DNA from: Calliopsis andreniformis
Lineage: Eukaryota > Arthropoda > Insecta > Hymenoptera > Andrenidae
DNA: 64,000 bases
Direction: 5' to 3'
Assembly: GCF_051401765.1 (NCBI RefSeq)
Contig: NW_027480429.1
Span: 15,442,157-15,506,156, forward strand
A program made the translations under genes and the position numbers. Shown piece by piece: positions 20,193-59,016 of this stretch (the first letter of the stretch is position 1; each line of letters starts with the position of its first letter). Under the pieces are notes generated by a model that was not told where the DNA came from, made no database searches, and saw only the letters and a list, made by a program, of their open reading frames with translations.

Positions 20193-22729
20193 CTAGGCTT
20201 CACTCTAGGGCATTGCTCCACCAGATCGAATAGTTAGTACCTTAGAAGCCAACGCCAGAAGCATAAAATACAATATAAATACAACAGCTTTCCATCGTAT
20301 AAAATGAATAATTGCAAACAGTGTGAAAGTAATGGTCATTTCTACGTTCCGGGCAACCTAGGCTTCACTGTAGGGCGTTGCACCACCAGATCGAATAGTT
20401 AGGGCCTTAGAAGTCAACGCCAGAAGCATAAAAGACAATATAAATACAACAACTTTTCCATCGTATAACAGAAATAATAGCAACCAGTGCGAAAGTTATG
20501 GTCATTTCTACGTTCCAGGCAACCTAGGCTTCACTCTAGGGCGTTCCTCCACCAGATCGAATAGTTAGGGCCTTAGAAGTCAACGCCCGAAGCCTAAAAT
20601 GCAATAAAACTACAACAGTTTTTCCATCGCATAACAGGAATAATTCCAACCAGTTTGAAAGTGATGGTCATTTCTACGTTCCGGGCAACCTAGGCTTCAC
20701 TCTAGGGCGTTGTTACACCAGATCGAATAGTTAGGGCCTTAGAAGTCAACGCCCGAAGCATAAAATGCAATAAAACTACAACAGTTTTTCCATCGCATAA
20801 CAGGAATAATTCCAACCAGTTTGAAAGTGATGGTCATTTCTACGTTCCGGGCTACCAAGGCTTCACTCTAGGGCGTTGTCACACCAGATCGAATAGCTAC
20901 GACCTTAGAAGTCAAAGCCAGAAGCAGAAAATACAATAAAAATGCAACAGTTTTTCCACCGTACAGCATGGCTAATTGCAACCAGTGCGAAAGTAATGAT
21001 CATTTCGACGTTTCGGGCAACCTAGGCTTCACTCTAGGGCGCTGCTCCAACAGATCGAATAGCTAGGGACTTAGAATTCAACGCTAAAAGCATAAAGTAC
21101 AATAAAGATGCAACAGCTTTTCCATGGTATAACAGGAATAAGTGCAACCAGTGTGAAGGTAACGGTCTGTCCTACGTTCCGGGCAACCTAGGCTTCACTC
21201 CAGGGCGTTGCTAAATCAGATCGAATAGATAGGATCTTAGAAGTCAACGCCCGAAGCATAAAGTACAAAATAAATAGAACAGATTTTCCATTGTATAAAA
21301 CGAATAATAGCAACCAGTGTGAAAGTTAAGGTCATTTCTACGTTCCGGGCAACCTAGGCTTCACTCTAGGGCGTTGCACCACCAGATCGAATAGTTAGGG
21401 ACTAAGAAGTCAACGCCAGAAGCACCAATTACAAAATAAATACAACAGTTTTTCGATCGTATAAAGCGAATAATTGCAACCAGTGTGAAAGTAATGGTCA
21501 TTTCAACGTTGCGGGCAACCAAGGCTTCACTCTAGGGCGTTGTCACACCAGATCGAATAGCTACGACCTTAGAAGTCAAAGCCAGAAGCAGAAAATACAA
21601 TAAAAATGCAACAGTTTTTCCACCCTATAGCATGGCTAATTGCAACCAGTGCGAAAGTAATGATCATTTCGACGTTTCGGGCAACCTAGGCTTCACTCTA
21701 GGGCGCTGCTCCACCAGATCGAATAGCTAGGGACTTAGAATTCAACGCTAAAAGCATAAAGTACAATAAAGATGCAACAGCTTTTCCATCGTACAACAGG
21801 AATAATTGCAACCAGTGTGAAGGTAACGGTCTGACCTACGTTCCGGGCAACCTAGGCTTCACTCCAGGCCGTTGCTAAATCAGATCGAATAGATAGGATC
21901 TTAGAAGTCAACGCCCGAAGCATAGAGTACAAAATAAATAGAAGAGATTTTCCATTGTATAAAACGAATAATAGCAACCAGTGAGAAAGTTAAGGTCATT
22001 TCTACGTTCCGGGCATCCTAGGCTTCACTGTAGGGCGTTGCACCACCAGATCGAATAGTTAGGGCCTTAGAAGTCAACGCCAGAAGCATAAAAAACAATA
22101 TAAATACAACAACTTTTCCATCGTATAACAGGAATAATAGCAACCAGTGTGAAAGGTATGATCATTTCGACGTTTCGGGCAACATAGGCTTCACTGTAGG
22201 GCGTTGCTCCACCAGATCGAATGGGTAGGGCCATAGAAGTCAACGCCCGGAACATAAAATACAATATAAATACAACAGTTTTTCCATTGTATAAAACGAA
22301 TAATGGCAACCAGTGTGAAAGTAATGGTCATTTCTACGTTCCGGGCAACCTAGGCGTCACTCTAGGGCGTTGCTCCACCACATCGAATAGCTACGGCCTT
22401 AGAAGTCAACGCCAGAAGCATAAAATACAATATAAATACAACAGCATTTCCATCGTATAAAATGAATAATTGCAAACAGTGTGAAAGTAATGGTCATTTC
22501 TACGTTCCGGGCAACCTAGGCTTCACTCTATGCGTTGCTCCACCCGATCGAATAGCTAGGGACTTAGAATTCAACGCTAAAAGCATAAAGTACAATAAAG
22601 ATGCAACAGTTTTTCCATCGTATAACAGGAATAATTGCAACCAGTGTGAAGGTAACGGTCTGTCCTACGTTCCGGGCAACCTAGGCTTCACTCTAGGGCG
22701 TTGCTACACCAGATCGAATAGTTAAGGCC
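20193..22729 (+). repeat. Divergent monomer block at the start of B1
   Basis: Rare monomers are marked by GCATTGCTCC, GAAGCCTAAAATGC, GTTGTCACACC, CATGGCTAATTGC and GGTAACGGTCTG. A pair of near-identical adjacent monomers lies at about 20578-20910. A four-monomer unit starting GTCACACC repeats at 20878 and 21542, exactly 664 bp apart. Homologous monomers occur at 2767-4310 in region A. A nearly identical segment is at 39605-42141 by the large duplication. Confidence 0.8.
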
Positions 22730-24530
22730 TTAGAAGTCCACGCCAGAAGCATAAAATACGATAAAGATGCAACAGTTTTTCCATCGTATAAAACGAATAA
22801 TTGCAACCAGTGTGAAATTTATGGTCATTCCTACATTCTGAGCAACCTAGACTTCACTCTAGAGCGTTTCTCCACCAGATCGAATAGTTAGGTCCTTAGA
22901 AGTTGACACCAGAAGCATAAAATACGATATAAATACAACATTTTGTCCTTCGTAGGACAGGAATATTTGCAACCAGTGCGAAAGTTATGGTCATTTCTGC
23001 GTTCCGGGCAACCTAGGCTTCACTCTAGGGCGTTGCTCCACCAGATCAATCAGTTAGGGCCTTAGAAGTCAACGCCCGATGCATAAAATACAAAATAAAT
23101 AGAACAGTTTTTCCATTGTATAAAACGAATAATTGCTACCAGTGTAAAAGCTATGGTCATTTCTACGTTCCGGTCAACCTAGGCTTCACTCTAGGGCGTT
23201 GCTCCACCAGATCGAATAGTTAGGGCCTTAGAAGTCCACGCCAAAAGCATAAAATACGATAAAGTTGCAACAGTTTTTCGATAGTATAACAGGAATAATT
23301 CCAACCAGTCTGAAAGTAATGGTCATTTCTACGTTCCAGGCAATCTAGGCTTCAGCCTAGGGCGTTGTTCCACCAGATCGAATAGTTAGGGCCTAAGAAG
23401 TCAACGCCAGAAGCATAAAATACAATATAAATATAACAGTTTTTCCATCGTATAAAACGAATAATAGCAACCAGTGTGAAAGTTATAGTCATTTCTACGT
23501 TCCGGGCTTCCTAGGCTTCACTATATGGCGTTGATCCACCACATCGAATAGCTACGTCCTTAGAAGTCAACGCCTGAAGCATAAAATGCAATAAAAATAC
23601 AACAGGTTTTTCACCGTATAACTGGAATAGTTGCAACAAGCGTGAAGGTAATGGTCATTTCTGCGTTCCGGGCAACCTGGCTTCACCCTAGGGCGTTGTT
23701 CCACCAAATCGAATAGTTAGGGCCTAAGAAGTGAACGCCAGAAGCATAAAATACAATATAAATACAACAGTTTTACCATCATATAAAACGAATAATAGCA
23801 ACCAGTGTGAAGGTTATGGTCATTTCAACGTTCCGGGCAATCTAGGCTTCACTCTAGGGCGTTGCTCCCCCAGATCAATCAGTTAGGGCCTTAGAAGTCA
23901 ACGCCCGAAGCATAAAATACAAAATAACTAGAACAGTTTTTCCATTGCATAAAACGAATAATTGCTACCAGTGTAAAAGTTATGGTCATTTCTACGTTCC
24001 GGGTAACCTAGGCTTCACTCTAGGGCGTTGCTCCACCAAATCGAATAGTTAGGGCCTTAGAAGTCCACGACAGAAGCATAAAATACGATAAAGATGCAAC
24101 AGTTTTTCCATCGTATAAAACGAATAATTGCAACCAGTGTGAAATTTATGGTCATTCCTACATTCCGAGCACCCTGGGCTTCACCCTATTGCGTTGTTCC
24201 ACCTGATGGAATAGTTAGGGCCTAAGAAGTCAACGCCAGAACCATAAAATACGATATAAATACAGCAGCTTTTCCATCGTATAAAACGAATAATTGCAAC
24301 CAGCGTGATAGTTATGCTTATTTCTACGTACCGGGCAACCTAGGCATCACCCTAGGGCGTTGCTCCAACAGATTGAATAGTTAGGGCCTTAAAAGTCAAT
24401 GCCCGAAGCATAAAATGCAATACAAATACAACAGTTTTTCCATCGTATAACAGGAATAATTGCAACCAGTGTGAATGTAATGGTCGTTTCTACGTTCCGG
24501 GCAACCTAGGATTCACTCTAGGGCGTTGCT
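22730..24530 (+). repeat. Mixed e-f-d, p-q-r and c-d-e monomers in B1
   Basis: Types e and f (here with ATTTTGTCC, a sub-variant of f) are followed by d, an altered e, p, q and r, then c, d and e again and two units with CAGCGTGATAG and GAATGTAATGG. The f sub-variant with GAAGTTGACACC and TTGTCCTTCG is also used in the later B blocks and was not seen in regions A or C. A one-base deletion (CCTGGC) lies at about 23678. Confidence 0.75.
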
Positions 24531-26114
24531 CCAACAGATTGAATAGTTAGGGCCTTACAAGTCAATGCCCGAAGCATAAAATGCAATAAAAATACAACAG
24601 TGTTTCCATCATATAACGGGAATAATTGCAATCAGTTTGAAAGTGATGGCCATTTCTACGTTCCGGGTAACCTAGGCTTCACTCTAGGGCGTTGTTCCAC
24701 CACATCGAACAGTTAGGCCCTAAGAAGTCAACGCCAGAAGCATAAAATACAATATAAATATAACAGTTTTTCCATCGTATAAAACGAATGATAGCAACCA
24801 GTGTGAAAGTTATGGTCATTTCTACGTCCCGGGCAACCTAGGCTTCACTCTAGGGCGTTGCTCCACCAGATCGAATAGTTATTGCCTTAGAAGTCAACGC
24901 CCGAAGCATAAAATACAAAATAAATAAAACAGTTTTTCCATCGTATAAAACGAATAATTGCAACCAGTATGAAACTTATGGTCATTCCTACATTCCGAGC
25001 AACCTGGGCTTCACCCTAGGGCGTTGTTCCACCAGATGGAATAGTTAGGGCCTAAGAAGTCAACGCCAGAACCATAAAATGCAAAAAAAATACAACAGTG
25101 TTTCCATCGTATAAAACGAATAATAGCAACCAGTTTGAAACTTATGGTCATTTCTACTTTCCGAGCAACCTAGGCTTCACCCTAGGGCGTTGCTCCAACA
25201 GATTGAATAGTTAGGGTCTTAGAAATCAACGCCCGAACCATAAAATGCAAAAAAAATACAACAGTGTTTCCATCATATGACAGGAATAATTGCAACCAGT
25301 TTGAAAGTGATGGCCAATTCTACGTTCCGGGCAACCTAGGTTTCACTCCAGGGCGTTGCACCAGCAGACCGAATAGTTACGGCCTAAGAAGTCAACGCCA
25401 GAAGCATAAAATACGATATAAATACAACAGCATTTCCATCTTATAAAACGAATAATTGCAACCAGTGTGAAAGTAATGGTCATTTCTACGTTCCGAGCAC
25501 CCTAGGCGTCTCTCTAGGGCGTTGCTCTACCACATCTAAAAGCTACGGCCTTAGAAGTCAACGCCAGAGGCATGAAATACAATATAAATACAACAGTGTT
25601 TCCATCATATAACAGGAATAATTGCAACCAGTTTGAAAGTGATGGCCATTTCTACGTTCCGGGCAACCTAGGCTTCACTCTATGACGTTCTTCCACCACA
25701 TCGAATAGCTACGGCCTCAGAAGTCAACGCCTGAAGTATAAAAGGCATTAAAAATACAACAGTCTCTCCATCCTATAACAGGAATAATTGCAACCCGTGT
25801 GAAAGTAATGGTCATTTCTACGTTCCAGGCAATCTAGGCTTCACTCTAGGGCGTTGTTCCACCAGATCGAATAGTTAGGGCCTAAGAAGTCAACGACAGA
25901 AGCATAAAATACAATATAAATATATCAGTTTTTCCATCGTATAAAACGAATAATAGCAGCCAGTGCGAAAGTTAAGGTCATTTCTACGGTCCGGGCAACC
26001 TAGGCTTCACTCTAGGGCGTTGCTCCACCAGATCAAACAGTTAGGGCCTTAGAAGCCAACGCTCGAAGCATTAAATACCAAATAAATAGAACAGTTTTTC
26101 CATCGTATAAAACA
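24531..26114 (+). repeat. A-tract monomer block (first in B1)
   Basis: Several monomers replace the usual GCAATAAAAATAC with GCA followed by a run of eight A, as at 25082-25090 and about 25249. They pair this with CAGTGTTTCCATC, CAGTTTGAAAGTGATGGCC and AATTCTACG. They alternate with monomers ending ACTTTCCGAGCAACC. A 460-bp part, about 25638-26098, recurs at about 31778-32238 at 6,140 bp spacing, marked by TATGACGTTC and CAGTCTCTCCATCC. These types were not seen in regions A or C. Confidence 0.75.
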
Positions 26115-27401
26115 AATAATTGCAACCAGTATGAAACTTATGGTCATCTCTACTTTCCGAGCAAGCTAAGCTTCACCCTAGGGCGTTGCTCCAACAGATT
26201 CAATAGTTAGGACCTTAGAAGTGAACGCCAGAACCATAAAATGCAAAAAAATACAACAGTGTTTCCATCATATATCAGGAATAACTGCAACCAGTTTGAA
26301 AGTGATGGCCAATTCTACGTTCCGGGCAACCTAGGTTTCACTCCATGGCGTTGCTCCACCAGATTCAACAGTTAGGGCCTTATAAGTCAACGCCCGAAGC
26401 ATAAAATATAAAATAAATAGTACAGTTTTTGCGTCGTATAAAACGAATAATTGCTACCAGTGTGGAAGTTATGGTCATTTCCACGTTCCGGGTAGCCTAG
26501 GCTTCACTCTAGGGCGTTGCTCCACCAGATGGAACAGTTAGGGCCTTAGAAGTCAACGCCAGATGCATAAAATACAATAACGATGCAACAGTTTTTCCAT
26601 CGTATAACAGGAATAATAGCAACCAGTGTGAAAGTTATGGTCATTTCAACGTTCCGGGCTTCCTAGGCTTCACTCTATGGCGTTGCTCCACCACATCGAA
26701 TAGCTACGGCCTTAGAAGTCAACGCCTGAAGCATAAAATGCAATAAAAATACAACAGTTTTTTCACCGTATAACAGGAATAATTGCAACCAGTGTGAAAT
26801 TTATGGTCATTCCTACATTCCGAGCAACCTAGACTTCACTCTAGAGCGTTTCTCCACCAGATCGAATAGTTAGGTCCTTAGAAGTTGACACCAGAAGCAT
26901 AAAATACGATATAAATACAAGATTTTGTCCTTCGTAGAACAGGAATATTTGCAACCAGTGCGAAAGTTATGGTCATTTCTGCGTTCCGGGCAACCTAGGC
27001 TTCACTCTAGGGCGTTGCTCCACCAGATTCAACAGCTAGGGCCATAGAAGTCAACGCCCGAAACATAAAATACAAAATAAATAGTACAGTTTTTGCATCG
27101 TATAAAACGAATAATTGCTACCAGTGTGGAAGTTATGGTCATTTCCACGTTCCGGGCAGCCTAGGCTTCACTCTAGGGCGTTGCTCCACCAGATGGAATA
27201 GTTAGGGCCTTAGAAGTCAACGCCAGATGCATAAAATACAATAAAGATGCAACAGTTTTTCCATCGTATAACAGGAATAATTGCAACCAGTTTGAAAGTG
27301 ATGGTCATTTTTACGTTCCGGGCAATCTAGGCTTCGCTCTAGGGCGTTGTTCCACCAGATCGAACAGTTAGGCCCTAAGAAGTCAACGCCAGAAGCATAA
27401 A
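26115..27401 (+). repeat. Internal 1,287-bp duplication, copy 1
   Basis: This stretch matches 27774-29060 at 1,659 bp spacing (10 monomers less one base). The missing base is a seven-A run present once in each interval. One difference was seen: A at 26506 against G at 28165. The repeat stops where CATAAAG (27402) faces CATAAAA (29061). Content is an A-tract monomer, a g variant with TATAAAATAAATAG, then h, p/q, e, f, g and h. Confidence 0.85.
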
Positions 27402-27773
27402 GTACAATATAAATACAACAGTTTTTCCATCGTATAAAACAAATAATTGCAACCAGTATGAAACTTATGGTCATTTCGACTTTCCCAGCAACCTAGGCTT
27501 CACCCTAGGGCGTTGCTCCAACAGATTGAATAGTTAGGGCCTTAGAAGTCAACGCCCGGACCATAAAATGCAAAAAAAATACAACAGTGTTTCCATCATA
27601 TAACAGGAATAATTGCAACCAGTTTGAAAGTGATGGCCAATTCTACGTTCCGGGCAACCTACGCTTCACTCTATTGCGTTGCTCCACCAGATCGAATAGT
27701 TAGTGCCTTAGAAGTCAACGCCAGAAGCATATAATACAATATAAATACAACAGTGTTTCCATCGTATAAAACG
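27402..27773 (+). repeat. Spacer between the two 1,287-bp copies
   Basis: This is satellite too, with A-tract monomers. It belongs to a longer match: 27381 to about 27924 corresponds to 32526 to about 33069 at 5,145 bp spacing (31 monomers less one base). Shared marks are CAGTTTTTCC followed by AAAACAAATAA, GACTTTCCCAGC, CGGACCATAAAATGC and CTATTGCG. Confidence 0.75.
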
Positions 27774-29060
27774 AATAATTGCAACCAGTATGAAACTTAT
27801 GGTCATCTCTACTTTCCGAGCAAGCTAAGCTTCACCCTAGGGCGTTGCTCCAACAGATTCAATAGTTAGGACCTTAGAAGTGAACGCCAGAACCATAAAA
27901 TGCAAAAAAATACAACAGTGTTTCCATCATATATCAGGAATAACTGCAACCAGTTTGAAAGTGATGGCCAATTCTACGTTCCGGGCAACCTAGGTTTCAC
28001 TCCATGGCGTTGCTCCACCAGATTCAACAGTTAGGGCCTTATAAGTCAACGCCCGAAGCATAAAATATAAAATAAATAGTACAGTTTTTGCGTCGTATAA
28101 AACGAATAATTGCTACCAGTGTGGAAGTTATGGTCATTTCCACGTTCCGGGTAGCCTAGGCTTCGCTCTAGGGCGTTGCTCCACCAGATGGAACAGTTAG
28201 GGCCTTAGAAGTCAACGCCAGATGCATAAAATACAATAACGATGCAACAGTTTTTCCATCGTATAACAGGAATAATAGCAACCAGTGTGAAAGTTATGGT
28301 CATTTCAACGTTCCGGGCTTCCTAGGCTTCACTCTATGGCGTTGCTCCACCACATCGAATAGCTACGGCCTTAGAAGTCAACGCCTGAAGCATAAAATGC
28401 AATAAAAATACAACAGTTTTTTCACCGTATAACAGGAATAATTGCAACCAGTGTGAAATTTATGGTCATTCCTACATTCCGAGCAACCTAGACTTCACTC
28501 TAGAGCGTTTCTCCACCAGATCGAATAGTTAGGTCCTTAGAAGTTGACACCAGAAGCATAAAATACGATATAAATACAAGATTTTGTCCTTCGTAGAACA
28601 GGAATATTTGCAACCAGTGCGAAAGTTATGGTCATTTCTGCGTTCCGGGCAACCTAGGCTTCACTCTAGGGCGTTGCTCCACCAGATTCAACAGCTAGGG
28701 CCATAGAAGTCAACGCCCGAAACATAAAATACAAAATAAATAGTACAGTTTTTGCATCGTATAAAACGAATAATTGCTACCAGTGTGGAAGTTATGGTCA
28801 TTTCCACGTTCCGGGCAGCCTAGGCTTCACTCTAGGGCGTTGCTCCACCAGATGGAATAGTTAGGGCCTTAGAAGTCAACGCCAGATGCATAAAATACAA
28901 TAAAGATGCAACAGTTTTTCCATCGTATAACAGGAATAATTGCAACCAGTTTGAAAGTGATGGTCATTTTTACGTTCCGGGCAATCTAGGCTTCGCTCTA
29001 GGGCGTTGTTCCACCAGATCGAACAGTTAGGCCCTAAGAAGTCAACGCCAGAAGCATAAA
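27774..29060 (+). repeat. Internal 1,287-bp duplication, copy 2
   Basis: Counterpart of 26115-27401. A third, more diverged relative of most of this unit lies at 34712-35786, 8,460 bp after the corresponding part of copy 1. It differs at several single bases, for example GCATCG for GCGTCG and AGATACATAA for AGATGCATAA. Copies 1 and 2 are therefore younger than the split from the third. Confidence 0.85.
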
Positions 29061-31695
29061 ATACAATATAAATATAACGGTTTTTCCATCGTATAAAACG
29101 AATGATAGCAACCAGCGTGAAAGTTATGGTCATTTCTACGTTCCGGGCAACCTAGGCTTCACTCTAGGGCGTTGCTCCACCAGATCGAATAGTTATTGCC
29201 TTTGAAGTCAACGCCCGAAGCATAAAATACAAAATAAATAAAACAGTTTTTCCATTGTATGAAACGAATAATTGCAACCAGTATGAAACTTATGGTCTTT
29301 TCCACTTTCCGAGCAACCTAGGCGTCACTCTAGGGCGTTGCTCCACCAGATCGAATAGCTAGGGACTTAGAATTCATCTCTAAAAGCATAAAATACAATT
29401 AAAATACAACAGTTTTTCCATCGTATAACAGGAATAATTGCAACCAGTGTGAAAGTAATGGTCATTTCTACGTTCCGGGCAACCTAGGCTTCACCCTAGG
29501 GCGTTGTTCCACCAAATCGAATAGTTAGGGCCTAAGAAGTGAACGCCAGATGCATAAAATACAATATAAATACTACAGTTTTTCCATCATATAAAACGAA
29601 TAATTGCAACCAGGATGAAAGTTATGGTCATTTCTACTTTCCGGGCAACCTAGGCTTCACCCTAGGGCGCTGCTCCAACAGATTGATTAGTTAGGGCCTT
29701 AGAAGTCAATGCCCGAAGCATAAAATGCAATAAAAGTTCAACAGTTCTTCCATCATATAACAGGAATAATTGCAACCAGTGTGAAAGTAATGGTCATTTC
29801 CATGTTCCGGGCAACCTAGGCTTCACTCTAGGGCGTTGCTCCACCAGGTCGAATAGTTAGGGCCTTAGAATTCAACGCCAGAATTCTAAAATACAATAAA
29901 GATGCAACAGCTTTTCCATCGTATAAAACGAATAATTGCAAACAGTCTGAAAGTAATGGTCATTTCTACGTTCCAGGCAACCTAGGCTTCACCCTAGGGC
30001 GTTGTTCCACCAGATCGAATAGGTAGGGCCTAGGAAGTCAACGCCATAAGAATAAAATACAATATAAATATAACAGTTTTTCCATCGTATAAAACGAATA
30101 AAAGCAACCAGTGTGAAGGTTATGGTCATTTCAACGTTCCGAGCAATCTAGGCTTCACTCTAGGGCGTTTCTCCACCAGATCAATCAGTTAGGGCCATAG
30201 AAGTCAACGCCCGAAGCATAAAATACAAAATAAATAGTACAGTTTTTGCATCGTATAAAACGAATAATTGCTACCAGTGTGGAAGTTATGGTCATTTCCA
30301 CGTTCCGGGCAGCCTAGCCTTCACTCTAGGGCGTTGCTCCACCAGATGGAATAGTTAGGGCCTTAGAAGTCAACGCCAGATGCATAAAATACAATAAAGA
30401 TGCAACAGTTTTTCCATCGTATAACAGGAATAATTGCAACCAGTTTGAAAGTGATGGTCATTTTTACGTTCCGGGCAACCTAGGCTTCACTCTAGGGCGT
30501 TGTTCCACCAGATCGAACAGTTAGGCCCTAAGAAGTCAACGCCAGAAGCATAAAATACAATATAAATATAACAGTTTTTCCATCGTATAAAACGAATGAG
30601 AGCAACCAGCGTGAAAGTTATGGTCATTTCTACGTTCCGGGCAACCTAGGCTTCACTCTAGGGCGTTGCTCCACCAGATCGAATAGTTATTGCCTTAGAA
30701 GTCAACGCCCGAAGCATAAAATACAAAATAAATAAAACAGTTTTTCCATTGTATGAAACGAATAATTGCAACCAGTATGAAACTTATGGTCTTTTCCACT
30801 TTCCGAGCAACCTAGGCTTCACCCTAGGGCGTTGCTCCAACAGATTGAATCGTTAGGGCCTTAGAAGTCAACGCCCGAAGCAAAAAACACGATATAAATA
30901 CAACAGCTTTTCCATCGTATAAAACGGATAATTGCAACCAGTGTGAAAGTAATGGTCATTTCTACTTTCCGAGCAACCTAGGCGTCACTCTAGGGCGTTG
31001 CTCCACCAGATCGAATAGCTAGGGACTTAGAATTCATCTCTAAAAGCATAAAATACAATTAAAATACAACAGTTTTTCCATCGTATAACAGGAATAATTG
31101 CAACCAGTGTGAAAGTAATGGTCATTTCTACGTTCCGGACAACGTAGGTTTCACTCTAGGGCGTTGATCCGCCAGAGGGAATAGTTAGGGCCTAAGGAGT
31201 CAACTCCAGAAGCATAAAATACAATATAAATACAACAGTTTTTCAATCGTATAAAACGAATAATTGCAACCAGTGTGAAAGTTATGGTCATTTCTACGTT
31301 CCGGGCAACCTAGGTTTCACTCTAGGGCGTCGCTCCAATAGGTCGAATAGCTAGGGACTTAGAATTCAACGCCAGAAGGATAAAATACAATATATCTACA
31401 ACAGTTTTTTCATCGTATAAAATGAATACTTGCAAACATTGTGAAAGTTATGGTCATTTCTACGTTCCAGGCAACCAAGGCTTCACCCTAGGGCGTTGTT
31501 CCACCAGATAGAATAGGTAGGGCTTAAGAAGTCAACGCCTTAAGAATAAAATACAATATAAATATAACAGTTTTTCCATCGTATAAAACGAATAATAGCA
31601 ACCAGTGTGAAAGTTATGGTCATTCCTACGTTCCGGGCGACCTAGTCTTCAGTCTGGGGCGTTGTTCCACCAGATCGAATAGTTAGGGCCTAGGA
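29061..31695 (+). repeat. HOR run i-j-l-r-a-b-c-g-h-i-j-k-l-m-n-o-p in B1
   Basis: Types follow the general order, with short cuts at j to l (about 29310, through a j/k switch), l to r (about 29490) and c to g (about 30190). Type a begins at 29706 and the sequence then runs a-b-c-g-h-i-j-k-l-m-n-o-p to about 31690. Every skip keeps the 166-bp phase, as expected for homologous exchange between different monomers in register. Confidence 0.8.
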
Positions 31696-34600
31696 AGTCA
31701 ACGCCATAAGAATAAAATACAATATAAATATAACAGTTTTTCCATCGTATAAAACGAATAAAAGCAACCAGTGTGAAGGTTATGGCCATTTCTACGTTCC
31801 GGGCAACCTAGGCTTTACTCTATGACGTTCTTCCACCACATCGAATAGCTACGGCCTCAGAAGTCAACGCCTGAAGTATAAAAGGCATTAAAAATACAAC
31901 AGTCTCTCCATCCTATAACAGGAATAATTGCAACCCGTGTGAAAGTAATGGTCATTTCTACGTTCCAGGCAACCTAGGCTTCACTCTAGGGCGTTGTTCC
32001 ACCAGATCGAATAGTTAGGGCCTAAGAAGTCAACGACAGAAGCATAAAATACAATATAAATATATCAGTTTTTCCATCGTATAAAACGAATAATAGCAGC
32101 CAGTGTGAAAGTTATGGTCATTTCTACGGTCCGGGCAACCTAGGCTTCACTCTAGGGCGTTGCTCCACCAGATCAAACAGTTAGGGCCTTAGAAGCCAAC
32201 GCTCGAAGCATTAAATACCAAATAAATAGAACAGTTTTTCCATTGTATAAAACGAATAATTGCTACCAGTGTAAAAGTTATGGTCATTTCTACGTTCCGG
32301 GCAACCTAGGCTTCACCCTAAGCCGTTGTTCCACCAGATCGAATAGTTAGGGCCTAAGAAGTGAACGCCAGAAGCATAAAATGCAATACAGATAAAACAG
32401 TTTTTCCAACGTATAACTGGATTAATTGCAACCAGTTTGTAAGTGATGGTCATTTCTCCTTTCCGGGCAACCTAGGCTACACTCTAGGGCGTTGCTCTAC
32501 TAGATCGAATAGCTAGGGCCTTAGAAGTCAACGCCAGAAGCATAAAGTACAATATAAATACAACAGTTTTTCCATCGTATAAAACAAATAATTGCAACCA
32601 GTATGAAACTTATGGTCATTTCGACTTTCCCAGCAACCTAGGCTTCACCCTAGGGCGTTGCTCCAACAGATTGAATAGTTAGGGCCTTAGAAGTCAACGC
32701 CCGGACCATAAAATGCAAAAAAAATACAACAGTGTTTCCATCATATAACAGGAATAATTGCAACCAGTTTGAAAGTGATGGCCAATTCTACGTTCCGGGC
32801 AACCTACGCTTCACTCTATTGCGTTGCTCCACCAGATCGAATAGTTAGTGCCTTAGAAGTCAACGCCAGAAGCATATAATACAATATAAATACAACAGTG
32901 TTTCCATCGTATAAAACGAATAATTGCAACCAGTATGAAACTTATGGTCATCTCTACTTTCCGAGCAAGCTAAGCTTCACCCTAGGGCGTTGCTCCAACA
33001 GATTCAATAGTTAGGACCTTAGAAGTGAACGCCAGAACCATAAAATGCAAAAAAATACAACAGTGTTTCCAACTTATAACAGGAATAATTGCAACCAGTT
33101 TGATAGTGATAGCCAATTCTACGTTCCGGGCAACCCAGGCTTCTCTCTAGGGCGTTGCTCCACCAGATCGAATAGATAGTGCCTTAGAAGTCAACGCTAG
33201 AAGCATAAAATACAATATAAATACAACAGTTTTTCCATTGTATAAAACGAATAATTGCAACCAGTATGTAACTTATGGTCATTTCTACTTTCCAAGCAAC
33301 CTAGGCTTCACCCTAGGGCCTTGCTCCAACAGATTGAATAGTTAGGGCCTTAGAAGTCAACGCCCGAACCTTAAAATGCAAAAAAAATACAACAGTGTTT
33401 CCATCATATATCAGGAATAACTGCAACCAGTTTGAAAGTGATGGCCAATTCTACGTTCCGGGCAAACTAGGTTTCACTCCATGGCGTTGCTCCACCAGAC
33501 CGAATAGTTACGGCCTAAGAAGTCAACGACAGAAGCATAAAATACGATATAAATACAACAGCTTTTCCATCGTATAGAACGAATAATTGCAACCAGTATG
33601 ATACTTATGGTCATTTCTACTTTCCGAGCAAGCTAGGCTTCACCCTAGGGCGTTGCTCCAACAGATTGAAAGTTAGGGCCTTAGAAGTCAACGCCCGAAG
33701 CATAAAATGCAATAAAAATACAACAGTGTTTCCATCGTATAAAACGAATAATTGCAGCCAGTTTGAAAGTGATGGCCAATTCTACCTTCCGGGCAACCTA
33801 GGCTTCACTCTAGGGCGTGCTCCACCAGATCGAATAGTTAGTGCCTTAGAAGTCAACGCCAGAAGCATAAAATACAATATAAATACAACAGTTTTTCCAT
33901 CGTATAAAACGAATAATTGCAACCAGTATGAAACTTAAGTTCATTTCTACTTTCCGAGCAACCTAGGCTTCACCCTAGGGCGTTGCTCCAACGGATTGAA
34001 TAGTTAGGGCCTTAGAAGTCAACGCCCGAACCATAAAATGCAAAAAAAATACAACAGTGTTTCCATCATATAACAGCAATAATTGCAACCAGTTTGAAAG
34101 TGATGGCCAATTCTACGTTCCGGCAACCTAGGTTTCACTCCAGGGCGTTGCTCCACCAGACCGAATAGTTACGGCCTAAGAAGTCAACGCCAGAAGCATA
34201 AAATACGATATAAATACAACAGCTTCTCCATCGTACAAAACGAATAATTGCAACCAGTGTGAAAGTAATGGTCATTTCTACGTTCTGAGCACCCTAGGCG
34301 TCTCTCTAGGGCGTTGCTCCACCACATCTAATAGCTACGGCCTTAGAAGTCAACGCCAGAGGCATAAAATACAGTATAAATGCAACAGCTTTTCCACGTA
34401 TAAAACGAATAATTCCAACCAGTATGAAACTTATGGTCATTTCTACTTTCCGAGCAACCTAGGCTTCACCCTAGGGCGTTGCTCCAACGGATTGAATAGT
34501 TAGGGCCTTAGAAGTCAGCGCTAGAAGCATAAAATACAATATAAATACAACAGTTTTTCCATTGTATAAAACGAATAATTGCAACCAGTATGTAACTTAT

Positions 34601-34711
34601 GGTCATTTCTACTTTCCAAGCAATCTAAGCTTCACCCTAGGGCCTTGCTCCAACAGATTGAATAGTTAGGGCCTTAGAACTCAACGCCCGAACCTTAAAA
34701 TACAAAAAAAA
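31696..34711 (+). repeat. A-tract monomer block (second in B1), richest in one-base deletions
   Basis: A-tract monomers (runs of seven or eight A near 32708, 33049, 33379, 34040 and 34704) alternate with ACTTTCCGAGC monomers. Five of the ten one-base deletions of the B unit fall between about 33049 and 34396. They affect an A run, TGAATAG, CGTTGC, CCGGG and CCATCG. The segment shares about 460 bp with 25638-26098 and about 540 bp with 27381-27924. No gene is present. Confidence 0.8.
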
Positions 34712-46813: not shown

Positions 46814-47185
46814 GTACAATATAAATACAACAGTTTTTCCATCGTATAAAACAAATAATTGCAACCAGTATGAAACTTATGGTCATTTCGACTTTCCCAG
46901 CAACCTAGGCTTCACCCTAGGGCGTTGCTCCAACAGATTGAATAGTTAGGGCCTTAGAAGTCAACGCCCGGACCATAAAATGCAAAAAAAATACAACAGT
47001 GTTTCCATCATATAACAGGAATAATTGCAACCAGTTTGAAAGTGATGGCCAATTCTACGTTCCGGGCAACCTACGCTTCACTCTATTGCGTTGCTCCACC
47101 AGATCGAATAGTTAGTGCCTTAGAAGTCAACGCCAGAAGCATATAATACAATATAAATACAACAGTGTTTCCATCGTATAAAACG

Positions 47186-48472
47186 AATAATTGCAACCAG
47201 TATGAAACTTATGGTCATCTCTACTTTCCGAGCAAGCTAAGCTTCACCCTAGGGCGTTGCTCCAACAGATTCAATAGTTAGGACCTTAGAAGTGAACGCC
47301 AGAACCATAAAATGCAAAAAAATACAACAGTGTTTCCATCATATATCAGGAATAACTGCAACCAGTTTGAAAGTGATGGCCAATTCTACGTTCCGGGCAA
47401 CCTAGGTTTCACTCCATGGCGTTGCTCCACCAGATTCAACAGTTAGGGCCTTATAAGTCAACGCCCGAAGCATAAAATATAAAATAAATAGTACAGTTTT
47501 TGCGTCGTATAAAACGAATAATTGCTACCAGTGTGGAAGTTATGGTCATTTCCACGTTCCGGGTAGCCTAGGCTTCGCTCTAGGGCGTTGCTCCACCAGA
47601 TGGAACAGTTAGGGCCTTAGAAGTCAACGCCAGATGCATAAAATACAATAACGATGCAACAGTTTTTCCATCGTATAACAGGAATAATAGCAACCAGTGT
47701 GAAAGTTATGGTCATTTCAACGTTCCGGGCTTCCTAGGCTTCACTCTATGGCGTTGCTCCACCACATCGAATAGCTACGGCCTTAGAAGTCAACGCCTGA
47801 AGCATAAAATGCAATAAAAATACAACAGTTTTTTCACCGTATAACAGGAATAATTGCAACCAGTGTGAAATTTATGGTCATTCCTACATTCCGAGCAACC
47901 TAGACTTCACTCTAGAGCGTTTCTCCACCAGATCGAATAGTTAGGTCCTTAGAAGTTGACACCAGAAGCATAAAATACGATATAAATACAAGATTTTGTC
48001 CTTCGTAGAACAGGAATATTTGCAACCAGTGCGAAAGTTATGGTCATTTCTGCGTTCCGGGCAACCTAGGCTTCACTCTAGGGCGTTGCTCCACCAGATT
48101 CAACAGCTAGGGCCATAGAAGTCAACGCCCGAAACATAAAATACAAAATAAATAGTACAGTTTTTGCATCGTATAAAACGAATAATTGCTACCAGTGTGG
48201 AAGTTATGGTCATTTCCACGTTCCGGGCAGCCTAGGCTTCACTCTAGGGCGTTGCTCCACCAGATGGAATAGTTAGGGCCTTAGAAGTCAACGCCAGATG
48301 CATAAAATACAATAAAGATGCAACAGTTTTTCCATCGTATAACAGGAATAATTGCAACCAGTTTGAAAGTGATGGTCATTTTTACGTTCCGGGCAATCTA
48401 GGCTTCGCTCTAGGGCGTTGTTCCACCAGATCGAACAGTTAGGCCCTAAGAAGTCAACGCCAGAAGCATAAA
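47186..48472 (+). repeat. Internal 1,287-bp duplication, copy 2, in B2
   Basis: This is the B2 counterpart of 27774-29060. Content and boundaries are as in B1, and the match to copy 1 stops at CATAAAA against CATAAAG. Confidence 0.85.
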
Positions 48473-51400
48473 ATACAATATAAATATAACGGTTTTTCCA
48501 TCGTATAAAACGAATGATAGCAACCAGCGTGAAAGTTATGGTCATTTCTACGTTCCGGGCAACCTAGGCTTCACTCTAGGGCGTTGCTCCACCAGATCGA
48601 ATAGTTATTGCCTTTGAAGTCAACGCCCGAAGCATAAAATACAAAATAAATAAAACAGTTTTTCCATTGTATGAAACGAATAATTGCAACCAGTATGAAA
48701 CTTATGGTCTTTTCCACTTTCCGAGCAACCTAGGCGTCACTCTAGGGCGTTGCTCCACCAGATCGAATAGCTAGGGACTTAGAATTCATCTCTAAAAGCA
48801 TAAAATACAATTAAAATACAACAGTTTTTCCATCGTATAACAGGAATAATTGCAACCAGTGTGAAAGTAATGGTCATTTCTACGTTCCGGGCAACCTAGG
48901 CTTCACCCTAGGGCGTTGTTCCACCAAATCGAATAGTTAGGGCCTAAGAAGTGAACGCCAGATGCATAAAATACAATATAAATACTACAGTTTTTCCATC
49001 ATATAAAACGAATAATTGCAACCAGGATGAAAGTTATGGTCATTTCTACTTTCCGGGCAACCTAGGCTTCACCCTAGGGCGCTGCTCCAACAGATTGATT
49101 AGTTAGGGCCTTAGAAGTCAATGCCCGAAGCATAAAATGCAATAAAAGTTCAACAGTTCTTCCATCATATAACAGGAATAATTGCAACCAGTGTGAAAGT
49201 AATGGTCATTTCCATGTTCCGGGCAACCTAGGCTTCACTCTAGGGCGTTGCTCCACCAGGTCGAATAGTTAGGGCCTTAGAATTCAACGCCAGAATTCTA
49301 AAATACAATAAAGATGCAACAGCTTTTCCATCGTATAAAACGAATAATTGCAAACAGTCTGAAAGTAATGGTCATTTCTACGTTCCAGGCAACCTAGGCT
49401 TCACCCTAGGGCGTTGTTCCACCAGATCGAATAGGTAGGGCCTAGGAAGTCAACGCCATAAGAATAAAATACAATATAAATATAACAGTTTTTCCATCGT
49501 ATAAAACGAATAAAAGCAACCAGTGTGAAGGTTATGGTCATTTCAACGTTCCGAGCAATCTAGGCTTCACTCTAGGGCGTTTCTCCACCAGATCAATCAG
49601 TTAGGGCCATAGAAGTCAACGCCCGAAGCATAAAATACAAAATAAATAGTACAGTTTTTGCATCGTATAAAACGAATAATTGCTACCAGTGTGGAAGTTA
49701 TGGTCATTTCCACGTTCCGGGCAGCCTAGCCTTCACTCTAGGGCGTTGCTCCACCAGATGGAATAGTTAGGGCCTTAGAAGTCAACGCCAGATGCATAAA
49801 ATACAATAAAGATGCAACAGTTTTTCCATCGTATAACAGGAATAATTGCAACCAGTTTGAAAGTGATGGTCATTTTTACGTTCCGGGCAACCTAGGCTTC
49901 ACTCTAGGGCGTTGTTCCACCAGATCGAACAGTTAGGCCCTAAGAAGTCAACGCCAGAAGCATAAAATACAATATAAATATAACAGTTTTTCCATCGTAT
50001 AAAACGAATGAGAGCAACCAGCGTGAAAGTTATGGTCATTTCTACGTTCCGGGCAACCTAGGCTTCACTCTAGGGCGTTGCTCCACCAGATCGAATAGTT
50101 ATTGCCTTAGAAGTCAACGCCCGAAGCATAAAATACAAAATAAATAAAACAGTTTTTCCATTGTATGAAACGAATAATTGCAACCAGTATGAAACTTATG
50201 GTCTTTTCCACTTTCCGAGCAACCTAGGCTTCACCCTAGGGCGTTGCTCCAACAGATTGAATCGTTAGGGCCTTAGAAGTCAACGCCCGAAGCAAAAAAC
50301 ACGATATAAATACAACAGCTTTTCCATCGTATAAAACGGATAATTGCAACCAGTGTGAAAGTAATGGTCATTTCTACTTTCCGAGCAACCTAGGCGTCAC
50401 TCTAGGGCGTTGCTCCACCAGATCGAATAGCTAGGGACTTAGAATTCATCTCTAAAAGCATAAAATACAATTAAAATACAACAGTTTTTCCATCGTATAA
50501 CAGGAATAATTGCAACCAGTGTGAAAGTAATGGTCATTTCTACGTTCCGGACAACGTAGGTTTCACTCTAGGGCGTTGATCCGCCAGAGGGAATAGTTAG
50601 GGCCTAAGGAGTCAACTCCAGAAGCATAAAATACAATATAAATACAACAGTTTTTCAATCGTATAAAACGAATAATTGCAACCAGTGTGAAAGTTATGGT
50701 CATTTCTACGTTCCGGGCAACCTAGGTTTCACTCTAGGGCGTCGCTCCAATAGGTCGAATAGCTAGGGACTTAGAATTCAACGCCAGAAGGATAAAATAC
50801 AATATATCTACAACAGTTTTTTCATCGTATAAAATGAATACTTGCAAACATTGTGAAAGTTATGGTCATTTCTACGTTCCAGGCAACCAAGGCTTCACCC
50901 TAGGGCGTTGTTCCACCAGATAGAATAGGTAGGGCTTAAGAAGTCAACGCCTTAAGAATAAAATACAATATAAATATAACAGTTTTTCCATCGTATAAAA
51001 CGAATAATAGCAACCAGTGTGAAAGTTATGGTCATTCCTACGTTCCGGGCGACCTAGTCTTCAGTCTGGGGCGTTGTTCCACCAGATCGAATAGTTAGGG
51101 CCTAGGAAGTCAACGCCATAAGAATAAAATACAATATAAATATAACAGTTTTTCCATCGTATAAAACGAATAAAAGCAACCAGTGTGAAGGTTATGGCCA
51201 TTTCTACGTTCCGGGCAACCTAGGCTTTACTCTATGACGTTCTTCCACCACATCGAATAGCTACGGCCTCAGAAGTCAACGCCTGAAGTATAAAAGGCAT
51301 TAAAAATACAACAGTCTCTCCATCCTATAACAGGAATAATTGCAACCCGTGTGAAAGTAATGGTCATTTCTACGTTCCAGGCAACCTAGGCTTCACTCTA

Positions 51401-54400
51401 GGGCGTTGTTCCACCAGATCGAATAGTTAGGGCCTAAGAAGTCAACGACAGAAGCATAAAATACAATATAAATATATCAGTTTTTCCATCGTATAAAACG
51501 AATAATAGCAGCCAGTGTGAAAGTTATGGTCATTTCTACGGTCCGGGCAACCTAGGCTTCACTCTAGGGCGTTGCTCCACCAGATCAAACAGTTAGGGCC
51601 TTAGAAGCCAACGCTCGAAGCATTAAATACCAAATAAATAGAACAGTTTTTCCATTGTATAAAACGAATAATTGCTACCAGTGTAAAAGTTATGGTCATT
51701 TCTACGTTCCGGGCAACCTAGGCTTCACCCTAAGCCGTTGTTCCACCAGATCGAATAGTTAGGGCCTAAGAAGTGAACGCCAGAAGCATAAAATGCAATA
51801 CAGATAAAACAGTTTTTCCAACGTATAACTGGATTAATTGCAACCAGTTTGTAAGTGATGGTCATTTCTCCTTTCCGGGCAACCTAGGCTACACTCTAGG
51901 GCGTTGCTCTACTAGATCGAATAGCTAGGGCCTTAGAAGTCAACGCCAGAAGCATAAAGTACAATATAAATACAACAGTTTTTCCATCGTATAAAACAAA
52001 TAATTGCAACCAGTATGAAACTTATGGTCATTTCGACTTTCCCAGCAACCTAGGCTTCACCCTAGGGCGTTGCTCCAACAGATTGAATAGTTAGGGCCTT
52101 AGAAGTCAACGCCCGGACCATAAAATGCAAAAAAAATACAACAGTGTTTCCATCATATAACAGGAATAATTGCAACCAGTTTGAAAGTGATGGCCAATTC
52201 TACGTTCCGGGCAACCTACGCTTCACTCTATTGCGTTGCTCCACCAGATCGAATAGTTAGTGCCTTAGAAGTCAACGCCAGAAGCATATAATACAATATA
52301 AATACAACAGTGTTTCCATCGTATAAAACGAATAATTGCAACCAGTATGAAACTTATGGTCATCTCTACTTTCCGAGCAAGCTAAGCTTCACCCTAGGGC
52401 GTTGCTCCAACAGATTCAATAGTTAGGACCTTAGAAGTGAACGCCAGAACCATAAAATGCAAAAAAATACAACAGTGTTTCCAACTTATAACAGGAATAA
52501 TTGCAACCAGTTTGATAGTGATAGCCAATTCTACGTTCCGGGCAACCCAGGCTTCTCTCTAGGGCGTTGCTCCACCAGATCGAATAGATAGTGCCTTAGA
52601 AGTCAACGCTAGAAGCATAAAATACAATATAAATACAACAGTTTTTCCATTGTATAAAACGAATAATTGCAACCAGTATGTAACTTATGGTCATTTCTAC
52701 TTTCCAAGCAACCTAGGCTTCACCCTAGGGCCTTGCTCCAACAGATTGAATAGTTAGGGCCTTAGAAGTCAACGCCCGAACCTTAAAATGCAAAAAAAAT
52801 ACAACAGTGTTTCCATCATATATCAGGAATAACTGCAACCAGTTTGAAAGTGATGGCCAATTCTACGTTCCGGGCAAACTAGGTTTCACTCCATGGCGTT
52901 GCTCCACCAGACCGAATAGTTACGGCCTAAGAAGTCAACGACAGAAGCATAAAATACGATATAAATACAACAGCTTTTCCATCGTATAGAACGAATAATT
53001 GCAACCAGTATGATACTTATGGTCATTTCTACTTTCCGAGCAAGCTAGGCTTCACCCTAGGGCGTTGCTCCAACAGATTGAAAGTTAGGGCCTTAGAAGT
53101 CAACGCCCGAAGCATAAAATGCAATAAAAATACAACAGTGTTTCCATCGTATAAAACGAATAATTGCAGCCAGTTTGAAAGTGATGGCCAATTCTACCTT
53201 CCGGGCAACCTAGGCTTCACTCTAGGGCGTGCTCCACCAGATCGAATAGTTAGTGCCTTAGAAGTCAACGCCAGAAGCATAAAATACAATATAAATACAA
53301 CAGTTTTTCCATCGTATAAAACGAATAATTGCAACCAGTATGAAACTTAAGTTCATTTCTACTTTCCGAGCAACCTAGGCTTCACCCTAGGGCGTTGCTC
53401 CAACGGATTGAATAGTTAGGGCCTTAGAAGTCAACGCCCGAACCATAAAATGCAAAAAAAATACAACAGTGTTTCCATCATATAACAGCAATAATTGCAA
53501 CCAGTTTGAAAGTGATGGCCAATTCTACGTTCCGGCAACCTAGGTTTCACTCCAGGGCGTTGCTCCACCAGACCGAATAGTTACGGCCTAAGAAGTCAAC
53601 GCCAGAAGCATAAAATACGATATAAATACAACAGCTTCTCCATCGTACAAAACGAATAATTGCAACCAGTGTGAAAGTAATGGTCATTTCTACGTTCTGA
53701 GCACCCTAGGCGTCTCTCTAGGGCGTTGCTCCACCACATCTAATAGCTACGGCCTTAGAAGTCAACGCCAGAGGCATAAAATACAGTATAAATGCAACAG
53801 CTTTTCCACGTATAAAACGAATAATTCCAACCAGTATGAAACTTATGGTCATTTCTACTTTCCGAGCAACCTAGGCTTCACCCTAGGGCGTTGCTCCAAC
53901 GGATTGAATAGTTAGGGCCTTAGAAGTCAGCGCTAGAAGCATAAAATACAATATAAATACAACAGTTTTTCCATTGTATAAAACGAATAATTGCAACCAG
54001 TATGTAACTTATGGTCATTTCTACTTTCCAAGCAATCTAAGCTTCACCCTAGGGCCTTGCTCCAACAGATTGAATAGTTAGGGCCTTAGAACTCAACGCC
54101 CGAACCTTAAAATACAAAAAAAATACAACAGTGTTTCCATCATATATCAGGAATAACTGCAACCAGTTTGAAAGTGATGGCCAATTCTACGTTCCGGGCA
54201 ACCTAGGGTTCACTCCATGGCGTTGCTCCACCAGATTCAACAGTTAGGGCCTTATAAGTCAACGCCCGAAGCATAAAATATAAAATAAATAGTACAGTTT
54301 TTGCATCGTATAAAACGAATAATTGCTACCAGTGTGGAAGTTATGGTCATTTCCACGTTCCGGGTAGCCTAGGCTTCACTCTAGGGCGTTGCTCCACCAG

Positions 54401-57400
54401 ATGGAACAGTTAGGGCCTTAGAAGTCAACGCCAGATACATAAAATACAATAACGATGCAACAGTTTTTCCATCGTATAACAGGAATAATAGCAACCAGTG
54501 TGAAAGTTGTGGTCATTTCAACGTTCCGGGCTTCCTAGGCTTCACTCTATGGCGTTGCTCCACCACATCGAATAGCTACGGCCTTAGAAGTCAACGCCTG
54601 AAGCATAAAATGCAATAAAAATACAACAGTTTTTTCACCGTATAACAGGAATAATTGCAACCGGTGTGAAATTTATGGTCATTCCTACATTCCGAGCAAC
54701 CTAGACTTCACTCTAGAGCGTTTCTCCACCAGATCGAATAGTTAGGTCCTTAGAAGTTGACACCAGAAGCATAAAATACGATATAAATACAAGATTTTGT
54801 CCTTCGTAGAACAGGAATATTTGCAACCAGTGCGAAAGTTATGGTCATTTCTGCGTTCCGGGCAACCTAGGCTTCACTCTAGGGCGTTGCTCCACCAGAT
54901 TCAACAGCTAGGGCCATAGAAGTCAACGCCCGAAACATAAAATACAAAATAAATAGTACAGTTTTTGCATCGTATAAAACGTATAATTGCTACCAGTGTG
55001 GAAGTTATGGTCATTTCCACGTTCCGGGCAGCCTAGGCTTCACTCTAGGGCGTTGCTCCACCAGATGGAATAGTTAGGGCCTTAGAAGTCAACGCCAGAT
55101 GCATAAAATACAATAAAGATGCAACAGTTTTTCCATCGTATAACAGGAATAATTGCAACCAGTTTGAAAGTGATGGTCATTTTTACGTTCCGGGCAACCT
55201 AGGCTTCACCCTAGGGCGTTGTTCCACCAAATCGAATAGTTAGGGCCCAAGAAGTGAACGCCAGATGCATAAAATACAATATAAATACAACAGTTTTTCC
55301 ATCATATAAAACGAATAATTGCAACCAGGATGAAAGTTATGGTCATTTCTACTTTCCGGGCAACCTAGGCTTCACCCTAGGGAGCTGCTCCAACAGATTG
55401 ATTAGTTAGGGCCTTAGAAGTCAATGCCCGAAGCATAAAATGCAATAAAAGTACAACAGTTCTTCCATCATATAACAGGAATAATTGCAACCCGTGTGAA
55501 AGTAATGGTCATTTCTACGTTCCGGGCAACCTAGGCTTCACTCTAGGGCGTTGCTCCACCAGATCGAATAGTTATTGCCTTAGAAGTCAACGCCCGAAGC
55601 ATAAAATACAAAATAAATAAAACAGTTTTTCCATTGTATGAAACGAATAATTGCAACCAGTATGAAACTTATGGTCTTTTCCACTTTCCGAGCAACCTAG
55701 GCTTCACCCTAGGGCGTTGCTCCAACAGATTGAATAGTTAGGGCCTTAGAAGTCAACGCCCGAAGCATAAAATACGATATGAATACAACAGCTTTTCCAT
55801 CGTATAAAACGGATAATTGCAACCAGTGTGAAAGTAATGGTCATTTCTACGTTCCGAGCAACCTAGGCGTCACTCTAGGGCGTTGCTCCACCAGATCGAA
55901 TAGCTAGGGACTTAGAATTCATCTCTAAAAGCATAAAACACAATTAAAATACAACAGTTTTTCCATCGTATAACAGGAATAATTGCAACCAGTGTGAAAG
56001 TAATGGTCATTTCTACGTTCCGGGCAACGTAGGTTTCACTCTAGGGCGTTGATCCGCCAGAGGGAATAGTTAGGGCCTAAGGAGTCAACTCCAGAAGCAT
56101 AAAATACAATATAAATACAACAGTTTTTCAATCGTATAAAACGAATATTTGCAACCAGTGTGAAAGTTATGGTCATTTCTACGTTCCGGGCAACCTAGGC
56201 TTCACTCTAGGGCGTTGCTCCACCAGATCGAATAGTTATTGCCTTAGAAGTCAACGCCCGAAGCATAAAATACAAAATAAATAAAACAGTTTTTCCATTG
56301 TATGAAACGAATAATTGCAACCAGTATGAAACTTATGTTCTTTTCCACTTTCCGAGCAACCTAGGCTTCACCCTAGGGCGTTGCTCCAACAGATTGAATC
56401 GTTAGGGCCTTAGAAGTCAACGCCCGAAGCAAAAAACACGATATAAATACAACAGCTTTTCCATCGTATAAAACGGATAATTGCAACCAGTGTGAAAGTA
56501 ATGGTCATTTCTACTTTCCGAGCAACCTAGGCGTCACTCTAGGGCGTTGCTCCACCAGATCGAATAGCTGGGGACTTAGAATTCATCTCTAAAAGCATAA
56601 AATACAATTAAAATACAACAGTTTTTCCATCGTATAACAGGAATAATTGCAACCAGTGTGAAAGTAATGGTCATTTCTACGTACCGGGCAACGTAGGTTT
56701 CACTCTAGGGCGTTGATCCGCCAGAGGGAATAGCTGGGGACTTAGAATTCATCTCTAAAAGCATAAAATACAATTAAAATACAACAGTTTTTCCATCGTA
56801 TAACAGGAATAATTGCAACCAGTGTGAAAGTAATGGTCATTTCTACGTTCCGGGCAACGTAGGTTTCACTCTAGGGCGTTGATCCGCCAGAGGGAATAGT
56901 TAGGGCCTAAGGAGTCAACTCCAGAAGCATAAAATACAATATAAATACAACAGTTTTTCAATCGTATAAAACGAATAATTGTAACCAGTGTGAAAGTTAT
57001 GGTCATTTCTACGTTCCGGGCAACCTAGGTTTCACTCTAGGGCGTCGCTCCAATAGGTCGAATAGCTAGGGACTTAGAATTCAACGCCAGAAGGATAAAA
57101 TACAATATACCTACAACAGTTTTTTCATCGTATAAAATGAATACTTGCAAACATTGTGAAAGTTATGGTCATTTCTACGTTCCAGGCAACCAAGGCTTCA
57201 CCCTAGGGCGTTGTTCCACCAGATCGAATAGGTAGGGCTTAAGAAGTCAACGCCTTAGGAATAAAATACAATATAAATATAACAGTTTTTCCATCGTATA
57301 AAACGAATAATAGCAACCAGTGTGAAAGTTATGGTCATTCCTACGTTCCGGGCGACCTAGTCTTCAGTCTGGGGCGTTGTTCCACCAGATCGAATAGTTA

Positions 57401-59016
57401 GGGCCTAAGAAGTCAACGCCAGAAGCATAAAATACAATATAAATATAACAGTTTTTCCATCGTATAAAACGAATAATAGCAACCAGTGTGAAAGTTATGG
57501 TCATTTCAACGTTCCGGGCTTCCTAGGCTTCACTCTATGGCGTTGCTCCACCACATCGAATAGCTACGGCCTTAGAAGTCAACGCCTGAAGCATAAAATG
57601 CAAGAAAAATACAACAGTTTTTTCACCGTATAACAGGAATAATTGCAACAAGCGTGAAGGTAATGGTCATTTTTGCGTTCCGGGCAACCTAGGCTTCACC
57701 CTAGGGCGTTGTTCCACCAAATCGAATAGTTAGGGCCTAAGAAGTGAACGCCAGATGCATAAAATAGAATACAAATACAACAGTTTTTCCATGATATAAA
57801 ACGAATAATTGCAAACAGGATGAAAGTTATGGTCATTTCTACTTTCCGGGCAACCTAGGCTTCACCCTAGGGCGCTGCTCCAACAGATTGATTAGTTAGG
57901 GCCTTAGAAGTCAATGCCCGAAGCATAAAATGCAATAAAAGTACAACAGTTCTTCCATCATATAACAGGAATAATAGCAACCAGTGTGAAAGTAATGGTC
58001 ATTTCCATGTTCCGGGCAACCTAGGCTTCACTCTAGGGCGTTGCTCCACCAGATCGAATAGTTAGGGCCTTAGAATTCAACGCCAGAATTCTAAAATACA
58101 ATAAAGATGCAACAGCTTTTCCATCGTATAAAACGAATAATTGCAAACAGTCTGAAAGTAATGGTCATTTCTACGTTCCAGGCAACCTAGGCTTCACCCT
58201 AGGCCGTTGTTCCACCAGATCGAATAGGTAGGGCCTAGGAAGTCAACGCCATAAGAATAAAATACAATATAAATATAACAGTTTTTCCATCGCATAAAAC
58301 GAATAAAAGCAACCAGTGTGAAGGTTATGGTCATTTCAACGTTCCGGGCAATCTAGGCTTCACTCTAGGGCGTTGCTCCACCAGATCAATCAGTTAGGGC
58401 CATAGAAGTCAACGCCCGAAGCATAAAATACAAAATAAATAGTACAGTTTTTGCATCGTATAAAACGAATAATAGCAACCAGTGTGAAAGTTATGGTCAT
58501 TTCAACGTTCCGGGCTTCCTAGGCTTCACTCTATGGCGTTGCTCCACCACATCGAATAGCTACGGCCTTAGAAGTCAACGCCTGAAGCATAAAATGCAAG
58601 AAAAATACAACAGTTTTTTCACCGTATAACAGGAATAATTGCAACAAGCGTGAAGGTAATGGTCATTTTTGCGTTCCGGGCAACCTAGGCTTCACCCTAG
58701 GGCGTTGTTCCACCAAATCGAATAGTTAGGGCCTAAGAAGTGAACGCCAGATGCATAAAATACAATACAAATACAACAGTTTTTCCATCATATAAAACGA
58801 ATAATTGCAACCAGGATGAAAGTTATGGTCATTTCTACTTATCGGGCAACCTAGGCTTCACCCTAGGGCGCTGCTCCAACAGATTGATTAGTTAGGGCCT
58901 TAGAAGTCAATGCCCGAAGCATAAAATGCAATAAAAGTACAACAGTTCTTCCATCATATAACAGGAATAATAGCAACCAGTGTGAAAGTAATGGTCATTT
59001 CCATGTTCCGGGCAAC

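Follow-up and report, generated by a model that had tools for sequence, protein, structure and literature searches.

Changes in satellite arrays have been directly observed in human and plant lineages. For a human family, the CEPH 1463 pedigree, the passages cited here report 18 de novo structural changes in 150 centromere transmissions, with 13 of the 18 located in alpha-satellite arrays, where they measured 680-12,228 bp and always comprised whole units (PMC12240836). For mutation accumulation lines of Arabidopsis, in-frame indels of 1-31 monomers are described (Dong et al. 2025, as given in the review PMC12321929), and the insertions, which derive from adjacent sequence, are called consistent with break-induced replication (PMC12321929). 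This process is likewise favoured for satellite growth in reviews (PMC8997354; PMC12321929), and array changes were tied to RAD52 and PIF1 in a cell-line study (PMC11034957); here as throughout, citations refer to excerpts of these sources. Against this background, we describe a 64,000-nucleotide stretch of contig NW_027480429.1 from Calliopsis andreniformis (hereafter, the window), which is a single head-to-tail 166-bp satellite throughout, and in which a block of 117 monomers stands as two adjacent direct copies. As judged from the sequence, this pair probably arose in one step and very recently, by tandem duplication in register. Such an origin would share with the changes in CEPH 1463 their one-step, whole-unit, and in-register character (PMC12240836), and with the Arabidopsis lines a precise in-frame gain from adjacent sequence (PMC12321929). 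In contrast, the human changes of 680-12,228 bp affected higher-order repeat (HOR) arrays, mostly on a chromosome with units more than 99.9% identical (PMC12240836), whereas the present array has a step of 19,412 bp, no HOR, and flanking monomers of 78-91% identity. Moreover, the 117 monomers are about four times the largest change cited for the Arabidopsis lines (PMC12321929), and the birth of the present duplication, unlike theirs, was not directly observed.

To compare the two copies of the block (U), we aligned the full window with itself, and found that copy 1 (20193-39604, forward strand) and copy 2 (39605-59016, forward strand) differ at none of their 19,412 bases. As about 2,840 differences would be expected for an unrelated in-register block of equal size, a chance origin of this identity is excluded. 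The match is prolonged by 19 bases past the block, ending at 39623 and 59035, and at the offset of 19,412 the run so formed (20193-39623, 19,431 bp) is the sole one of at least 100 bp. In fact, the initial annotation had already reported an apparently perfect 19,412-bp identity at a constant offset with these coordinates, had counted 117 monomers per segment, and had noted private one-base deletions common to both; the self-alignment, the monomer segmentation, and the deletion positions bear out each of these observations. Here, the block size corresponds to 117 x 166 = 19,422 bp less ten one-base deletions, all ten of which occupy identical positions in the two copies. At a lag of 117 monomers, no differing position is found in the 116 complete monomers within the block, while monomers beyond it have 7-37, and the monomer at the left boundary has three, every one of them left of that boundary. 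Moreover, all 32 singleton variants of the non-redundant array that are located in the block (a count that excludes seven columns left of the boundary) are also present in copy 2. The runner-up exact repeats in the window measure 895 bp, then 621 and 549 bp, no 1,000-bp stretch occurs twice inside one copy, and the 117-monomer block has two occurrences in the window and no more. For these adjacent direct copies, identity is far above the array background (0/19,412 versus 24.3 per 166).

That background was obtained by segmenting the window into 384 complete monomers, a set that omits the partial pieces at both window ends and in which 360 monomers measure 166 bp and the other 24 measure 165 bp. 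The spacing between monomers is 165 or 166 throughout, bar the last step, which is cut by the window end, and all 384 fit 166 alignment columns, so that none has an insertion relative to the consensus. The mean number of differences, out of 166 positions, is 24.3 for all pairs of monomers and 25.0 for neighbours (lag 1); monomers next to each other resemble one another no more than those far apart, and, block copies aside, no gradient of local homogenisation is seen. An HOR organisation was considered and rejected, as mean differences at lags 1-30 lie within 23.0-25.3 and no period is prominent. With the second copy omitted, the remaining 267 monomers diverge from the consensus by 3,722 substitutions and 14 one-base deletions, with no insertion, and 10 of the 14 deletions are located in the duplicated block. 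The near-constant monomer length, despite these many substitutions, is an observation in its own right. Register is kept as strictly, in that all 37,219 repeated 60-mer pairs compared (about half of them owed to the duplication itself) agree in phase to within one base, as do all 17,791 pairs that are left without the second copy. All 109 occurrences of an 18-base anchor are in the forward orientation, with none in reverse. The sequence has the look of a eukaryotic satellite, and a centromeric location of the array is putative.

The phase at all three block boundaries is the same, at 7 nt into the monomer anchor, such that the junction lies exactly in monomer register and the block length is a whole number of monomers. 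The exchange point falls within a 19-bp junction homology at 39605-39623 (forward strand; equivalents at 20193-20211 and 59017-59035), as delimited by the end of the exact run, base-level comparison, and phase. By exact match, phase, and base-level comparison alike, the first 19 bp of the right flank (59017-59035, forward strand) equal the block start and mark the ancestral right breakpoint. The two ancestral breakpoints have these 19 exact bases in common, and rightward 43 of 44 with one mismatch. Beyond, the resemblance is low: taking the nearest monomer outward, the left flank of copy 1 matches the block end at 151/166, 136/166, 135/166, 141/168, and 144/166 positions, and the block start matches the right flank at 145/167, 146/167, 144/167, 141/167, 131/168, and 135/167, which together give the monomers flanking the breakpoints an identity of 78-91%. 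Over +/-166 bp, the breakpoint pair has 36 mismatches versus a random mean of 48 and is somewhat more alike than average, while over +/-500 bp it has 139 versus 145; for a span from -166 to +44, picked after seeing the data, 3% of random pairs are as good. When all 258 candidate partners are ranked, the one used at the left breakpoint comes 6th over +/-166 bp (36 mismatches, the best having 30) and 18th over +/-332 bp, and the one used at the right breakpoint comes 22nd and 49th, respectively, with the best there being at lag 21 (6 mismatches in 332 bp). The join has a short homology that is only modestly above the array average, and the right breakpoint bypassed much better partners.

With regard to mechanism, a replication fork broken or stalled in the array, or a double-strand break there, would provide an end that could re-pair with the sister chromatid at a site about 117 monomers behind, by way of short in-register homology, and copying onward from the re-paired site would then yield the order L-U-U-R, where L and R are the left and right array parts. 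One event is the simplest account, because copy 2 is complete and sharp-edged on both sides, and all of the singletons counted above are in both copies. Since the flanks are diverged and the breakpoint homology is short, a break-induced or microhomology-type copy is spoken for; break-induced replication is the more likely form on account of the diverged flanks, and the scar would look no different after a reciprocal unequal sister exchange. The initial annotation had proposed a single large unequal exchange, of which the single event is favoured, while the exchange is too specific, both on account of this identical scar and because the flanks at the breakpoints lack the length and high similarity that efficient homologous exchange would lead one to expect. 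Both copies also inherited an older block duplication, nested at 26115-27401 and 27774-29060 (forward strand; ten-monomer offset, one mismatch in 1,287 bp), which predates the large duplication, as it is present in both copies of U.

As for age, zero differences limit the duplication, at the upper 95% bound, to about 11,000 generations if 7e-9 mutations per site are assumed, and to 6,400 generations at 1.2e-8. At the human centromere rate of 4.94e-8 (PMC12240836), this bound becomes 1,560 generations. All three bounds are loose, in that the mutation rates may not be those of the host.

Several points weigh against a recent duplication. The case is built on a single assembled sequence of one haplotype. 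At 117 monomers, the block exceeds the directly observed events in the cited passages (PMC12240836; PMC12321929), has about ten times the length of every other block pair found in the window, and, with 19.4 kb, comes suspiciously near to long-read length. Moreover, the 19-bp run is ordinary, an exact run of at least 19 bp being found at 19.4% of random in-register points, and the local homology is only modestly above chance, with 7% of random in-register pairs being as good over +/-166 bp, 14% over +/-83 bp, 14% over +/-332 bp, and 29% over +/-500 bp.

The foremost rival, to which we grant a substantial but less than even chance, is an assembly artefact, whereby a block present once in the genome was written twice by a register-preserving mis-join, a gap patch, or a blunt join of contigs overlapping by 19.4 kb. 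Perfect identity over a stretch of read length is a classical sign of such errors, and the partner used at the left breakpoint, 6th of 258, is among the best that a mis-join could have found. A mis-join driven by similarity would have to tolerate flanks of 78-91% identity, however, which assemblers of accurate reads should refuse, although noisy-read assembly or gap patching might accept overlaps of this kind, and the right breakpoint offered much better mis-join partners, such as the one at lag 21 described above. Blunt contig joining would hit the exact register only once in 166; this speaks against blunt joining, but leaves untouched the case for a mis-join that preserves register or for a gap patch. 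Tangles of long exact repeats inside the block are no explanation, because no 1,000-bp stretch repeats within one copy, a statement that concerns the block's interior. As precedents, false duplications in satellite arrays are documented, among them one of about 500 kb in each of two active human arrays within a single assembly (PMC12991106), and most locations of a 166-bp repeat in a Prunus draft genome were apparently misassembled, according to the passage cited (PMC9028240). The former, detected with HMM-Flagger, likewise consist of a satellite stretch written twice; there, read depth revealed them, whereas the present pair is known from its sequence alone and has a junction in exact register with short homology (PMC12991106). 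A recent tandem duplication is favoured over an artefact because the junction is in exact register and the break falls inside a short shared homology; our confidence in either is a judgement and was not computed. In opposing a much younger event to an assembly artefact, the initial annotation had named the right pair of alternatives, between which we lean to the recent event.

Far less probable is that the duplication is older and its copies were held identical by gene conversion. Such conversion has been proposed and reported for centromeric satellites in the passages cited (PMC8997354; PMC2834710), but here it would need to have covered the full 19.4 kb, stopped sharply at each end, and drawn on this single donor only, in an array that otherwise, as the lag 1 mean of 25.0 versus 24.3 for all pairs indicates, bears no sign of local homogenisation. 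Least probable of all is a 19.4-kb extrachromosomal circle excised and re-inserted beside its source, a listed satellite mechanism that yields the same tandem structure (PMC12321929), but one that requires two events at one place and that nothing in the sequence demands.

We also considered whether the junction coincides with a hot spot. It is located in one dyad of the form CCTAG-N8-CTAGG (39604-39621), which is found in 225 of the 384 complete monomers, often with the palindrome CCTAGG, and its presence at the junction is probably by chance. As a hot spot, the dyad was rejected: among the other block pairs, 11 of 111 starts fall in phase 0-19 versus a null of 13.3%, as do 11 of 113 ends, the null having been made for starts only, and, folded as DNA, the segment 39520-39690 is no stabler than its shuffles (z 0.66; 153 of the 200 reached the same or greater stability). 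The junction 19-mer ranks 3rd of 147 in conservation; since conservation by itself also makes the match look longer, we do not claim that the break fell in the part of the monomer that is most conserved.

Outside the block, the same satellite continues on the forward strand as the left array part (L, 1-20192, by monomer segmentation) and the right array part (R, 59036-64000, by diagonal scan), the latter with blocks of about 4-15 monomers that resemble sites in both L and the duplicated block, as seen among the 60 listed of 221 diagonal-scan segments. The initial annotation had contrasted the duplication with the other repeats of the array; the rest of the array is indeed diverged, with the refinement that other, much shorter block duplications exist. 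With the second copy omitted, the scan gave 113 block pairs of at least 500 bp at high identity, many of which overlap or have common boundaries, so that they do not represent 113 events. The longest, which is cut by the window edges, measures 1,984 bp and the next 1,706 bp, and identities among the 40 longest of the 113 are 96.7-99.77%. In addition, the two window ends (1-2272 and 61729-64000) match at 98.2% identity, with 41 mismatches in 2,272 bp and an offset of 61,728, equal to 255 monomers once the second copy is removed. As this match is cut at both ends, it may represent an older, possibly longer duplication reaching beyond the window. Boundaries of the older block pairs are enriched in monomer phase 40-59, counted from GGGCAACC, with 30 of 111 starts and 33 of 113 ends, to be read against a null of 13.6% that was computed for starts only and with the pairs, having common boundaries, not independent; phase 140-159 has many of their ends too (29/113).

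Turning to other satellites, named 166-bp families in Prunus, pennycress, and switchgrass (Panicum B2) were compared with the present one by length alone, as far as the cited excerpts describe them, and a shared length does not argue for identity. In the paper texts searched, a 17-base stretch of the monomer had no match, and an exact 27-mer was absent from prokaryote and viral contig collections, from which records of the own genome were possibly left out. In the text searched, a Populus/Salix paper does not mention '166', and a Tribolium paper was set aside, since its lone mention of 166 bp refers to a segment of another satellite.

What a recent duplication would mean concerns the way in which such arrays grow. 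Its kind is already known; its size is above that of the directly observed events in the cited passages, which is not to claim that larger steps are unreported. If supported by reads, the block would be a scar of satellite growth that is still fresh and undecayed, in which each breakpoint can be located to within 19 bp, in an array of low flanking similarity. If not real, it would instead exemplify a hidden, register-keeping false duplication in a satellite array. Whether arrays expand through many small steps or now and then through a large jump, and how little homology suffices, are questions to which a read-supported duplication would speak. We put forward, tentatively, the joint proposal that a non-HOR satellite array can expand in single copying jumps, each tens of kilobases long, and that about 20-45 bp of in-register homology may be all that such jumps need where the monomers otherwise differ by 10-20%, with the arrays built by large saltatory steps as well as by gains of a few monomers.

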